The notes beneath the pieces were generated by a model. That model was not told the origin of the DNA. It did not search any database and was given only the letters and a program-made list of their open reading frames with translations. Below, piece after piece: positions 4,548 through 13,187 of a stretch of DNA of 64,000 bases. How positions within the stretch are numbered: the first letter of the stretch is position 1; every line of letters begins with the position of its first letter. Position numbers and translations under genes: made by a program. This stretch comes from Armatimonas rosea. Lineage in GTDB: Bacteria; Armatimonadota; Armatimonadia; Armatimonadales; Armatimonadaceae. Location of the stretch: contig NZ_JACHGW010000007.1 in NCBI RefSeq assembly GCF_014202505.1, forward strand, positions 62,001-126,000, read 5' to 3'.

Positions 4548-5601
4548 TGTGCTTCTTCTGGGGCTGGTCGGGCAGCCTGCCGCCCCACAGCCACCGACCA
4601 CCGCCTTGGTTCGGCATGATTTTTCGACGAGTGACGACGGCTGGCTGGGGCTGGGGGATATCGCCAAGGTGAGCCGTACGGCCCCACCGGCTCCGACCCT
4701 GCACTTTGAGTACATGGTGGGAAAAGACTCGCTCAGTGCGCTGGTACATACGTTTGAGCCCGGCGTGCTCAAAGGCGCACAGCGTCTGCACTTCTCCGCC
4801 AAGACCGATACCGACACCGTGCTTGCGGTGCTGATCCAGGAGAAGGGCGGGGGGCGCTTCAGTGCAACCGCGACCCTGCCCAAGAATGTCTGGCAGGAGA
4901 TCGAGTTCTCGCCCTCGGAGCTCGCTCTGGCACGGGATAAGGGCGATCCCGCCGATGCCAATGGCAAGCTGGATGCGGACCAGATCGAGTCGGTGAGCCT
5001 TATCGACCTGCATGAGTTCTTCATTCGCACCGCGGACGGGCCAGCTAAGGCGCTCTTTCCCGGGATTGTCGCCGGACCGCGGGAGCTATGGCTCAAGGAG
5101 TTCTCCGTGGGCACCGCCGCCCTGCCCGCCCCAGGCCTCGATGGCCTTGCGCGACCGCAGCTCTCCTGGATCGGGGTGGGGGGCGCGGACCTGAAGCGCA
5201 CGGCCGCCGCCAAGAGCCCGCTGACCGCGACCAGTGTCGAGGCGGCCTACCAGGTGGGCAGTGGCAAGGTCGCAGGGATCTTTCACGCGCTCGTAAGCGG
5301 GGCGCTGGCGGAAAAAACAAGCCTGACTCTCTCGGTAGCGGTCCTCAAATCGGCGACTTTTCTGGTGCAGCTCGAGGACGACCAAGGGGGGAAGTTCAAT
5401 ACGACGATCGAGGTGCCCGGGGTGCGGTCCGCACGCAAGCTGACCCTGCCGCTCGCCGACTTCAAGCCCGATAATGACAGCAAGCGCGACAAACTCGACG
5501 CGAGCCGTGTCAAGCAGCTACTGATCCTGGATATCAGTGGCCTCACCGAGAGTGTCGAGCAAAACAACACACTCTGGCTGGCCAACCTGGAGGCAAAATA
5601 A
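4522..5601 (+). CDS. Secreted protein with two CIA30/galactose-binding-like domains
   Basis: The gene overlaps the end of the SPOR gene by 26 bases. The start is one of the ATGs at 4522, 4528 or 4531, with GGAG at 4514-4517. A Sec-type signal peptide (MFGLTSVLLLGLVGQPAA) precedes about 335 residues made of two similar jelly-roll-like halves. The first begins LVRHDFSTSDDGWLGLGD and the second AAYQVGSGKVAGIFHALV. Each has strands ending in regular DLHEFF- or DISGL-like edges. This resembles CIA30 or carbohydrate-binding beta-sandwich domains. There is no catalytic motif, and an extracellular or periplasmic binding role is inferred. Confidence 0.65.
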   Translation: MAMMFGLTSVLLLGLVGQPAAPQPPTTALVRHDFSTSDDGWLGLGDIAKVSRTAPPAPTLHFEYMVGKDSLSALVHTFEPGVLKGAQRLHFSAKTDTDTVLAVLIQEKGGGRFSATATLPKNVWQEIEFSPSELALARDKGDPADANGKLDADQIESVSLIDLHEFFIRTADGPAKALFPGIVAGPRELWLKEFSVGTAALPAPGLDGLARPQLSWIGVGGADLKRTAAAKSPLTATSVEAAYQVGSGKVAGIFHALVSGALAEKTSLTLSVAVLKSATFLVQLEDDQGGKFNTTIEVPGVRSARKLTLPLADFKPDNDSKRDKLDASRVKQLLILDISGLTESVEQNNTLWLANLEAK

Positions 5602-5605
5602 CAAC

Positions 5606-6736
5606 GTGACCCCTGAGGCGGAACTGCACTATACCCGTGGGCGACTTCACCTGCGCCGTGGCGAGTCGCTCCTTCCCTACGCTCCCTCTGAAAAAGAGAT
5701 GCAGACGGCACTGGAGAACTTTGAGAAGGCTCTTGCCATCGAGCCAACACACGCCGAGATTCACTACTGGATGGCCCATGCTCTCCGCCACCTCAGCCGA
5801 ACCCGTGAGGCACGTGTCGCGGCGCGTAAGGCGGTCGAGCTCGCTCCCCAGAACGACGAGTACGGGCGCCTCGTCCGGCTCCTGGAGAGCCCCGCCCCCG
5901 AGCCCACTCCCAGCCGTGCCGCGCCGCCCTTGCGCAATGGCGCCACGCCCTCCGCCAGCCCCGAGCCCATGCGCCCCACGCTCACCTGGGACGATGTCGT
6001 GCTGCCGGCCAAGACCAAGCGGGAGCTGCGCCAGATGCAGCTCTTGCTGGAGAACCCCGCCCAGGCCCGGCGGCTTGGTGTCGATCCCCCGACCGGCCTC
6101 CTGCTCTACGGCCCTCCCGGCACGGGCAAGACCACGATCGCCCGCATCCTGGCGGCTCAGGCCAAGTGTAAGTTCTTTGCCACCAGCCCCGCCGAGGTGA
6201 ACTCGATGTGGGTGGGCGAGGGCGAGAAGGCCGTGGCCAAGCTCTTCAACGAGGCACGACAGAACGCCCCCGCGATCATCTTCCTCGACGAGGTCGATGC
6301 CCTGATCCCGAGCCGTGTGGGGGGGATGCACATGCCCTCCGACAAGGTGGTCAATCAGTTCCTCCACGAGATGGATGGGCTGGTCGCCAACCAAGGGCTC
6401 TTTGTGGTGGGCGCGACCAACCGCCCAGACATGCTCGACCCCGCGCTCGTCCGCGGAGGGCGCCTCTCTCGCCAGATCGAGATCCCGCTCCCCGACGAAG
6501 AGGCACGGCGCTCTATCTTGGAGGTCTGTGTGAAGCGGGCCGTGATCGCCGACGATGTGGACCTGGACCGGCTTGCGGCGGGTGCGGAGGAGTTCTCAGG
6601 TGCCGACCTGCGCGCGCTGGTGAACGAGGCCGGGATGCAAGCCTTGATCCGACTCGCGGATGAGGGCGGAGTCGAGGCGGTCACGATGGCGGACTTTGAG
6701 ATCGCCCTCGAGAACATGGACAAGACCGAGGACTAG
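5606..6736 (+). CDS. TPR-AAA+ ATPase (Cdc48/FtsH-like core)
   Basis: The start is a GTG five bases after the preceding stop, with GGAGG further upstream. The N-terminal 90 residues form TPR-like helices (MQTALENFEKALAIEPTHAE). A single AAA+ module follows: Walker A GPPGTGKT (about residue 169), Walker B IIFLDEVDAL (about residue 224), sensor GATNRPDMLDPALVRGGR, and a C-terminal lid helix with EEFSGADLRALVNEAG. The arrangement is that of classic AAA proteins such as Cdc48, FtsH or Vps4, but no protease domain or second AAA domain is present. The likely role is ATP-driven unfolding or complex remodelling. Its stop shares CTAG with the convergent PAD gene. Confidence 0.85.
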   Translation: MTPEAELHYTRGRLHLRRGESLLPYAPSEKEMQTALENFEKALAIEPTHAEIHYWMAHALRHLSRTREARVAARKAVELAPQNDEYGRLVRLLESPAPEPTPSRAAPPLRNGATPSASPEPMRPTLTWDDVVLPAKTKRELRQMQLLLENPAQARRLGVDPPTGLLLYGPPGTGKTTIARILAAQAKCKFFATSPAEVNSMWVGEGEKAVAKLFNEARQNAPAIIFLDEVDALIPSRVGGMHMPSDKVVNQFLHEMDGLVANQGLFVVGATNRPDMLDPALVRGGRLSRQIEIPLPDEEARRSILEVCVKRAVIADDVDLDRLAAGAEEFSGADLRALVNEAGMQALIRLADEGGVEAVTMADFEIALENMDKTED

Positions 6737-7779
6737 CGCGGCGCTTTCTCCGGGGCGAGGCGCCGTCGTAGGGCGTTGGTGCCGCAGTGGACCTCGCCCG
6801 CTGCCGTATGGTAGGGCTCCCAGATATCTAAGAACTGGGGGCTCAGGCCCAGCTCGGTAAACAGCGTGGCAATTTGGTGCCGGTAGGGAGCAAAGGCGGG
6901 ATCGGGGACAAAGACTCGCTTGCCGACAACCAAGCTATTGACGGGATTGGGCAAGACCGCCAGGCCGTTCTCAAAGAGCGCGGGCAGCGCCACGATATCC
7001 GCTTCGTCGATACCAAGCTCGCGCTTGAGCTGCTCCCGTGTCGCTTTAAGCGCCGCCCGAATCCGCCCCTGCTCCGGGCTCACGGCGAGCGCCTTGAGGT
7101 GACCGACCGTGGTCTCGCCGCGCCGCCCCACAAAGACCGGCTGGTCGTCGTTCAGCCCCGTGAGGGCCACGAGTGCGGTATCGGGGCAGGGGAGCAGGGC
7201 ACGCCAGCCCTTGCGGTCGGGAGCCGGCACAAAGTTGAGCACCTCATCCACATGTCCGATTGTCAGCCAGCTCACGTCCACGAAGACCGGCGGCCACTGG
7301 GCCTTTTGTGCCTCCAGGAATGCCAGGGCATCGGGGTGAAAGCTCAGCTCTTTCTGCTTGCCCGTGAGAGCGCGCCCGTGCGGGTAGCCGGGGACCGGAG
7401 GGGAGACCTCCAGGTTGCCGTACCAGTCGATCCAGCGTCGCTGGGGTAGCGCCTCGCCCACCGGGATGCGCTCGACCTGCGGGAGCTTCTCCGCCAGAAA
7501 CTGCGCGACCCGCGCATCCAGCGGGCCACAAACCAGGCCCATGTCGTGCTTACTGCGAAGGCCCAGGAGCGCGGCGGGCTTGCCGCCACGCACCCCAAAC
7601 TCCACCGTGTCCTGCATCCAGACATCCGACGCGTGCGCGGGATCGTTGGCGATTGCGTAGACAGGCACCCCGGCGAGCCGGGTAAGCTCGGTGATCAGGG
7701 GCTTTGTCCGTGGGGTCTCCACCACAAAGAGTGCCTCAACCGGATCGAGCGACGAGCAGAGTAGGAACGGGTTTTCCAC
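6733..7779 (-). CDS. Stand-alone protein-arginine deiminase (PAD) catalytic domain
   Basis: The 348-residue product aligns along its whole length with the C-terminal catalytic domain of animal peptidylarginine deiminases. Shared motifs are VWMQDTVEFG (Asp57), GNLEVSPPV, IGHVDEVLNFVPAPDRKGW (His176, Asp178), LKRELGIDEADI and GEVHCGTNALRR (Cys332). These match the Asp, His, Asp and Cys catalytic residues of human PAD4. The PAD N-terminal and middle domains are absent, and no signal peptide is seen. The predicted reaction is Ca-dependent conversion of arginine side chains to citrulline. The GTG at 7779 is chosen because TACAAT ends six bases before it; a TTG at 7827 would add 16 residues. Its stop shares CTAG with the AAA+ gene. 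Confidence 0.88.
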   Translation of the reverse strand: MENPFLLCSSLDPVEALFVVETPRTKPLITELTRLAGVPVYAIANDPAHASDVWMQDTVEFGVRGGKPAALLGLRSKHDMGLVCGPLDARVAQFLAEKLPQVERIPVGEALPQRRWIDWYGNLEVSPPVPGYPHGRALTGKQKELSFHPDALAFLEAQKAQWPPVFVDVSWLTIGHVDEVLNFVPAPDRKGWRALLPCPDTALVALTGLNDDQPVFVGRRGETTVGHLKALAVSPEQGRIRAALKATREQLKRELGIDEADIVALPALFENGLAVLPNPVNSLVVGKRVFVPDPAFAPYRHQIATLFTELGLSPQFLDIWEPYHTAAGEVHCGTNALRRRLAPEKAPR

Positions 7780-7785
7780 AGCGCG

Positions 7786-7791
7786 ATTGTA
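7786..7791 (-). promoter_or_regulatory. -10 box TACAAT for the PAD gene
   Basis: TACAAT on the minus strand ends six bases upstream of the GTG at 7779. No Shine-Dalgarno lies between them, so the transcript is probably leaderless. Confidence 0.55.
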
Positions 7792-7830
7792 CCCGCAGGA
7801 AACCACGGTGGCTTTGGTGAAAGACAAGGC

Positions 7831-8586
7831 ATGGCAAAGATACCCATTTGTTTGCAGATGTATACGGTCCGTGACGATGCCCAGCGCGATCTGGCAGGGA
7901 CCCTCGCAACCGTTGCAAGCCTTGGCTATGCGGGAGTGGAGCTGGCCGGCTACTCAGGCAAGACAGCGCAGGAGTACAAGGCGCTCCTCGATTCCCATGG
8001 CCTGCGCGCCATTGGTGCCCACGTGGGCGTGGACCAGGTCACGGGAAAGATCGACCAGACTATTGAAGAGGCGAAGCTCTTTGGCTACAACTATGTGATC
8101 GTCCCGTGGATCGGCAAGCCCTACACCGAGTCGCTTGAGGGCTACCGCACGCTGGGAGCGGAGCTCTCCGCAGTTGCGGAGCAGTATACTGCGGCGGGGC
8201 TGACACTCTGCTACCACAACCACGCCTTTGAGTTCGACCTCTTGGAGGGGGACAAGACGGGGCTCGATGTCTTATTCGAGTCCGCCCCCCGTGTCCAGGC
8301 AGAGCTGGATACCTTCTGGATCAAGAAGGGCTGCCAAGACATCCCGGAGTACCTCACCCGGCTCTCGGGGCGGGTACCGCTGGTGCACCTGAAGGACATG
8401 GATGCCGAAGGGAACTTTGCGCCGGTGGGCACGGGGACCGTGGACTATCCGGCACTGTTTGCGGCCGCGGAGGCAGCGGGCGTCGCCTACTACATGGTCG
8501 AGCAGGACAGCTGCCAGGCCCCCTTGACCCCGCTTGAGTCGATCAAGGTTAGTATGGAGAACCTGAAGGCCTGGGGCAAGGTCTGA
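7831..8586 (+). CDS. Sugar phosphate isomerase/epimerase (xylose isomerase-like TIM barrel)
   Basis: This 251-residue TIM-barrel protein belongs to the AP-endonuclease 2 / sugar isomerase superfamily. The N-terminus PICLQMYTVRDD, the segment GYAGVELAGYSG, the metal-site strands LCYHNHAFEF and VQAELDTFWIKKG, then VPLVHLKDMD and a final YYMVEQDS are all typical. Glu, Asp and His residues in these strands would bind a divalent metal. It probably interconverts a keto or aldo sugar or an inositol derivative; the substrate is not predictable. A small membrane protein follows after seven bases. Confidence 0.85.
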   Translation: MAKIPICLQMYTVRDDAQRDLAGTLATVASLGYAGVELAGYSGKTAQEYKALLDSHGLRAIGAHVGVDQVTGKIDQTIEEAKLFGYNYVIVPWIGKPYTESLEGYRTLGAELSAVAEQYTAAGLTLCYHNHAFEFDLLEGDKTGLDVLFESAPRVQAELDTFWIKKGCQDIPEYLTRLSGRVPLVHLKDMDAEGNFAPVGTGTVDYPALFAAAEAAGVAYYMVEQDSCQAPLTPLESIKVSMENLKAWGKV

Positions 8587-12495: not shown

Positions 12496-12578
12496 AGTTA
12501 TTTCCTGAGGAGGACGCCGCCGATTGTATCGCGGTGCATCTCTCCTTCGCAACGAGAGTGTACAATTGTTTTAAGAGA

Positions 12579-13187
12579 ATGGTTCCTGACCCGGAGTTTT
12601 ACTGGCACACGAGCCCCTTGCAGTTTGTCCCCGCGATCCTGAGCTCTGGGGCGCTCGTGGCATCGGCCTACCCAAGGCCCCGCGCCCTGGCACGCCGCCG
12701 CAAGCTTGGGCTGGAGGGGGTTGTCCATCTTTCTTTTACCGCACGGACACCGCTTCTTACCGATAAATGCCAGCGCGGCTATCCTCACGTGCTCTTTGCC
12801 TTCGACCCCGCAATCGCCGAGCTCCCTGGCGCGGGCTATCTCAAGTGGAACACGATGCGCTGGGCACACCGCGAGGAGTTTATCCCGATTGTCGATCCCG
12901 CCGAGAAGGCCACCTTTCGCGCCGCCTGGCGCGCCGGGAGCTACCCGTCGGCGGAGCTTTTGATACCAAAACAGCTCGCGCTCAACCACGCCACCGCCCT
13001 CTATCTTGCCTCGCAGGCCGAGGCGGACTGGCTGATGCGGCTATCTCTTCCCACTCCTCCGATGACAATCGACCCGGAAAGGTTCCCGCCCGGCCCCCCT
13101 CACGATCTCACCGCGTTTCACGAGTGGGCCGATTCCTGCGAGCGTGCCGGGGAGCTCCTGCCGCCGCTGGAGGCGGTGTTTGATTGA
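12579..13187 (+). CDS. DarT-like (DUF4433) ADP-ribosyltransferase-fold protein
   Basis: The 202-residue product follows the DarT layout. It has an N-terminal His strand and helix (FYWHTSPLQFVPAILSSGAL), an Arg-rich segment (RPRALARRRKL), then VVHLSFTARTPLL at the place of the DarT YFTPRSPM motif. A later AELLIPKQLAL has Glu at the place of the catalytic glutamate. DarT toxins ADP-ribosylate thymidines in single-stranded DNA and are normally paired with a DarG macrodomain antitoxin, but no such gene is adjacent. TACAAT lies at 12560-12565. The stop TGA coincides with the start of a palindromic repeat. The family call rests on motif order only. Confidence 0.55.
   Translation: MVPDPEFYWHTSPLQFVPAILSSGALVASAYPRPRALARRRKLGLEGVVHLSFTARTPLLTDKCQRGYPHVLFAFDPAIAELPGAGYLKWNTMRWAHREEFIPIVDPAEKATFRAAWRAGSYPSAELLIPKQLALNHATALYLASQAEADWLMRLSLPTPPMTIDPERFPPGPPHDLTAFHEWADSCERAGELLPPLEAVFD

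Follow-up and report, generated by a model that had tools for sequence, protein, structure and literature searches.

The window, by which we mean the whole 64,000-nucleotide stretch of DNA analysed here, encodes a peptidylarginine deiminase (PAD) that consists of the catalytic domain alone. The gene is under purifying selection, with a dN/dS of about 0.14 against the same-genus homologue L017 at a pS of 0.61, which is partly saturated. Judged from its residues, the product would be active in the cytoplasm as a peptidyl-arginine deiminase and would lack the calcium switch of the animal enzymes, a reading that we favour by a modest margin over its being wrong. The published scheme knows only three-domain PADs in animals and cyanobacteria and two-domain PADs in fungi and other bacteria (PMC8826395). 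Since the window PAD starts at the catalytic domain, its single-domain form departs from this scheme. PADs as such are already known from bacteria: they were recorded in 295 bacterial species, which is 0.76% of the species whose proteomes are available (PMC8826395). A review describes the enzymes of bacteria and fungi as active but their roles there as entirely unknown (PMC9174705). The main text of PMC8826395 does not mention the Armatimonadetes, and in the open literature, judged by titles and abstracts, no paper on Armatimonadetes PADs was found. If a PAD occurs in nature as the catalytic domain alone, it would reveal the purpose of the additional domains. It would also be a small enzyme suited to structural studies and inhibitor development, and bacterial citrullination of endogenous origin could be tested directly with it. 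The gene is as follows.

6733..7779, minus strand: single-domain PAD catalytic-domain gene, 348 amino acids, GTG start (Pfam and PDB matches, start kept in the genus, dN/dS).

The 348-residue product was scanned against Pfam and matched the PAD family PF03068 with an E-value of 5.5e-44 and 151 bits, the curated cut-off being 25. The match spans positions 13-389 of the 395 in the profile and begins a few residues into the protein. No second Pfam family was found in the product, and neither PAD_N nor PAD_M was detected, which bears out the description as a catalytic domain alone in the initial annotation. NCBIfam has no model for the protein. When the single sequence was compared with the PDB, human PAD3 and PAD4 were the best solved structures (E about 1e-34), and with the family profile as query PAD4 was matched at E=2e-72. 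Only PADs gave significant matches among the solved structures. The identity is about 33% to human PAD4, 33-35% across PAD4 and PAD3 and 28% to the Streptomyces plasmid protein L026. Profile searches with PF04371, the family of Porphyromonas PPAD and agmatine deiminase, and with PF02274, that of arginine deiminase, matched neither the protein nor anything else in its genome, where PF03068 has a single match. According to the literature, PPAD has a pentein fold and a Cys-His mechanism too but belongs to a different sequence family, and the separation from PPAD made earlier thus stands. The AlphaFold models were weak, with a mean pLDDT of 53 from 5 alignment rows and of 44 from 8 rows. With the model of pLDDT 53, Foldseek ranked human PAD chains first (E 1e-14), and VIA-align gave a Z of about 15 over about 140-170 residues, mostly in the C-terminal half. 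The comparison of structures with PAD4 that had been proposed thus supports a predicted pentein/PAD fold, whereas the active-site geometry is beyond the reach of models this weak.

The open reading frame extends from 6733 to 7827 on the minus strand, and its longest start would be a TTG at 7827. The GTG at 7779 is better supported, because the 17 bases found upstream of it and the position of the start are both kept in the same-genus homologue (L002/L017), which has an ATG at about the same place. The start chosen in the initial annotation was therefore retained. Two elements lie in front of it.

7785-7801, minus strand: 17-nucleotide stretch TTCCTGCGGGTACAATC, directly upstream of the GTG, identical at 17/17 positions in the same-genus L002.
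7786..7791, minus strand: TACAAT, a -10-like element within TTCCTGCGGGTACAATC, 6 nucleotides before the GTG (L002 alignment, position).

Farther upstream, the conservation against L002/L017 is weaker. Since TACAAT is only 6 nucleotides away from the GTG, the PAD transcript may be leaderless. This is only suggestive, because a scan for a sigma-70 consensus pair or full promoter upstream of the gene found none. By eye, no signal sequence or other sign of secretion was seen in the protein, which agrees with the intracellular location assigned before and points to the cytoplasm.

The residues of the active site were then assigned by a MAFFT alignment to human PAD4. All codons are on the minus strand.

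7618..7620, minus strand: Trp54, PAD4 Trp347, which lines the substrate arginine side chain (alignment).
7609..7611, minus strand: Asp57, catalytic PAD4 Asp350 (alignment; invariant in 11 homologues).
7555..7557, minus strand: Arg75, which probably corresponds to PAD4 Arg372, a contact of the substrate backbone (profile alignment, MAFFT).
7252..7254, minus strand: His176, catalytic PAD4 His471 (alignment).
7246..7248, minus strand: Asp178, catalytic PAD4 Asp473 (alignment).
6937..6939, minus strand: Asn281, PAD4 Asn588 (alignment).
6784..6786, minus strand: Cys332, the nucleophile, PAD4 Cys645 (alignment).

The catalytic positions are all kept in the window protein and are invariant among 11 Armatimonadota homologues; the Asp, His-x-Asp and Cys recognised earlier are D57, H176, D178 and C332. 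Because the catalytic set is complete, deiminase chemistry is very likely. As a free-standing PAD_C guanidino hydrolase of the pentein type, the protein would work in the cytoplasm and deiminate arginine, with citrulline and ammonia as the products. In its active site, Asp57 and Asp178 would hold the guanidinium, Cys332 would attack it to give a thiouronium intermediate, His176 would serve as acid/base, and Trp54 and Ile174 would wall the arginine side chain. That the protein is instead a PAD relative that has lost catalysis or is no enzyme at all, as with PADI6, and serves for instance in binding, is very improbable. PADs do decay in the phylum, as the homologue L018 (G042) has no His-x-Asp and the copy in G018 is frameshifted, but each catalytic residue is kept in the window protein and 10 homologues, and a dN/dS of 0.14 also speaks against a dead protein.

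In PAD4, Arg372, Arg374 and Arg639 touch the substrate backbone and only Arg372 is essential: R372A has about 1% of the kcat, whereas R374A and R639A retain about 40-70% (PMC5314407). Arg75 is invariant in 11/11 Armatimonadota homologues and pairs with Arg372 in the profile and MAFFT alignments. A single-sequence alignment pairs His78 with Arg372 instead, and the loop aligns ambiguously; Arg75 is the probable, not the certain, equivalent. Arg374 is replaced by Lys77 and Arg639 by an alanine; human PAD3 has Gly and Leu at these positions. The two losses weigh less because Arg372 alone is essential in PAD4 and human PAD3 is also without Arg374 and Arg639. Mutants of PAD4 Val469 to Ala, Leu or Thr are nearly dead (PMC5314407). 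Throughout the Armatimonadota clade this position is an isoleucine, and the pocket therefore differs from that of PAD4.

With regard to the substrate, Tyr233 restricts PPAD to C-terminal arginines, and the same position is Ser468 in PAD4 and Thr468 in PAD2 (PMC4487231). In the window protein it is aligned with Thr173, the open-pocket form as in human PAD2. For this reason we propose that arginine inside peptides or proteins is the most likely substrate, rather than free arginine. Alternatively, the enzyme could deiminate free arginine or another small guanidino compound, replace the missing arginine deiminase and feed citrulline and ammonia into metabolism. Besides the two deiminase families mentioned above, the genome has no arginase match, and its argininosuccinate synthase would allow citrulline to be recycled; argG is universal in the controls, however, and so says little here. 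The residues His78, Arg115, Trp116 and Trp119, which are specific to the clade and invariant in the 11 homologues, could build a different substrate clamp. Against free arginine, the active-site pattern is PAD-like with Thr173 in the open form, no arcB- or arcC-like genes are adjacent, the neighbours are not metabolic partners, and the PAD gene is patchy, with PF03068 in 16/291 genomes of the phylum and in 9/194 among those of good quality. We regard the use of free arginine as rather unlikely.

Calcium is required by animal PADs and by the one cyanobacterial PAD that was tested (PMC8826395), and in the human enzymes the active site is ordered by the calcium bound in the catalytic domain (PMC11142921). 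In PAD4, Ca site 1 is formed by residues 349, 353 and 411 and site 2 by Glu351, Asp369 and Asn373; sites 3-5 sit in the middle domain, except for Asp388 at site 4 (PMC13023937). According to Cummings et al., site 1 is a conserved feature, but only the PADs of animals and late cyanobacteria have sites 2 and 4 (PMC8826395). In our alignment, the site-1 ligands are kept as Gln56 (Q349), Glu60 (E353) and Glu124 (E411), and they are conserved across nearly the whole Armatimonadota clade. At site 2, Thr58, a leucine and a serine, respectively, stand in place of the ligands, and the protein has no middle domain, in which sites 3-5 would lie. From these two losses we infer that it lacks the calcium switch of the animal enzymes. 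Calcium would most likely be bound at the site-1 position only, and the enzyme should work without the cooperative activation of the animal type. The calcium dependence that the initial annotation expected is accordingly doubtful. Of the losses that it had regarded as telling against a deiminase, those of site 2, Arg374 and Arg639 were found; site 1 is kept and Arg372 probably so. Conserved site-1 ligands are also what would be expected if calcium still controlled this PAD-type deiminase, acting at site 1 together with ligands that escape recognition. With site 2 replaced and the domain for sites 3-5 absent, such control seems improbable to us.

The peptidyl-arginine deiminase without the animal switch, which we prefer, has to face the fact that the animal PADs and the examined Streptomyces PADs all carry extra domains. 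The isoleucine in place of Val469 and the ambiguous loop around Arg372 count against it as well. Since calcium orders the human active site, an enzyme that has lost site 2 and gained nothing in its stead might also be poorly active. Going further, one may picture a minimal PAD free of the calcium switch that modifies the cell's own proteins. In that case PAD_C would need no regulatory domains in order to work, and the citrullination of proteins would be native to bacteria in the Armatimonadota. We put this forward only tentatively, as a rather doubtful extension.

Two genes flank the PAD gene, as had been noted before.

5537-6736, plus strand: TPR-AAA+ gene, convergent with the PAD gene, the stops overlapping by a few bases.
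7831-8586, plus strand: xylose-isomerase-like TIM-barrel gene, divergent from the PAD gene.

The same-genus L002 keeps the order PAD, isomerase, HTH protein and topA, and the PAD start and locus are conserved within the genus. Downstream of PAD, however, L002 has a gene for an MgtE transporter, and the AAA+ gene is hence not a conserved partner of PAD. In other genera the neighbours of PAD differ, although one downstream gene is common to two related genomes. A functional link through the neighbours was considered and rejected, since the AAA+ gene is not kept in the same-genus locus and the surroundings change between genera. PADLOC has no defence model that matches the PAD protein. The AAA+ protein is a small ATPase closest to CDC48/FtsH/PAN-type cassettes with an N-terminal TPR fused to it. 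In two related genomes (L034:1319-3292 and L003:4905-6848), a PAS-domain gene lies directly 3' of PAD on the same strand, which is PAS-SpoIIE in L034. Elsewhere in the window, at 12534-13187 on the plus strand, a 217-residue open reading frame has no Pfam and no PADLOC match; it is conserved in L002 (606-1304), adjoining topA, and recalls the DarT-type ADP-ribosyltransferases by eye.

The complete homologues of the window protein in the phylum have two architectures. Short forms starting at the catalytic domain are the window protein, L017, L010, L013 and L016. The long forms L008, L011, L012, L014 and L015 have 479-547 residues and carry an N-terminal extension of roughly 110-160 residues with an unrecognised fold. 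The extension was not accepted as a PAD_M domain, for it has no Pfam match and no significant PDB match, and hhalign gave a probability under 1% for a relation to the N-terminal region of the Streptomyces protein. A profile search for the extension elsewhere in the window genome, run without a positive control, gave no match. In a tree with long branches that took in the Armatimonadota, human PAD3/4 and Streptomyces plasmid PADs, the Armatimonadota catalytic domains formed one clade (support 100/99 and 99/96) apart from the others. The proposed phylogeny was thus obtained for its animal part, with 99-100% support for the separation from the human PADs; cyanobacterial PADs, like fungal ones and those of other phyla, lie outside this tree. 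The window protein pairs with the same-genus L017 (100/100), and the other genera of the family have long forms. By parsimony the architecture changed at least twice on the tree, and a single short clade was not rejected (AU p 0.42). The designation as "eukaryote-like" does not hold: the protein is inside a clade of Armatimonadota only, has no closer tie to human PAD4 than the identity given above, and the stretches it shares with animal PADs belong to the active site and recur as motifs among the bacterial PADs, for example as SWLSVGHVDEFVQFLP in Streptomyces. Phages and viral contigs gave no PAD match, the only matches on mobile elements being on Streptomyces and Embleya plasmids.

Compared with the three-domain PADI (human PAD1-4 and the Cyanothece PADI), the window protein has the same PF03068 domain, catalytic residues and site-1 ligands, but it is without PAD_N and PAD_M, the site-2 ligands and sites 3-5, has Ile for Val469, Lys for Arg374 and Ala for Arg639, and falls into a clade separate from human. 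The two-domain type of PADI, known from actinobacteria and fungi and represented by the Streptomyces plasmid proteins L026/L028, likewise has PF03068 in bacteria, no PAD_N and a site 2 that is not conserved. Unlike these enzymes, of which the Streptomyces proteins have 635-661 residues, the window protein has no middle domain; it shares 26-28% identity with them and belongs to another clade. The longer Armatimonadota PADs are in the same clade with 45-53% identity and the invariant motifs LRxxH and RWxDWxGN in common, and differ by the extension.

Several relatives deserve mention on their own. In L018:1504-2121 (G042, same phylum), the His-x-Asp stretch SWLTIGHVDEVINFVP of the relatives reads SWLADANIREALALLP; because the His-x-Asp is lost, this homologue looks catalytically dead, comparable to PADI6. 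In L035:6352-7422 on the minus strand (G018, same family), frame changes split the PAD gene into three pieces; the gene may be in decay, or the assembly may be faulty at this place. A different, more distant PAD fragment with a GGEVHCGTN end lies downstream of large open reading frames in L036:4595-5464 (G007, same phylum). At L014:1108-1170 (G014), the long-form PAD starts with an EF-hand-like GDFDHDGKRD; among the long forms, L014 alone seems to have retained residues resembling calcium ligands in the N-terminal extension.
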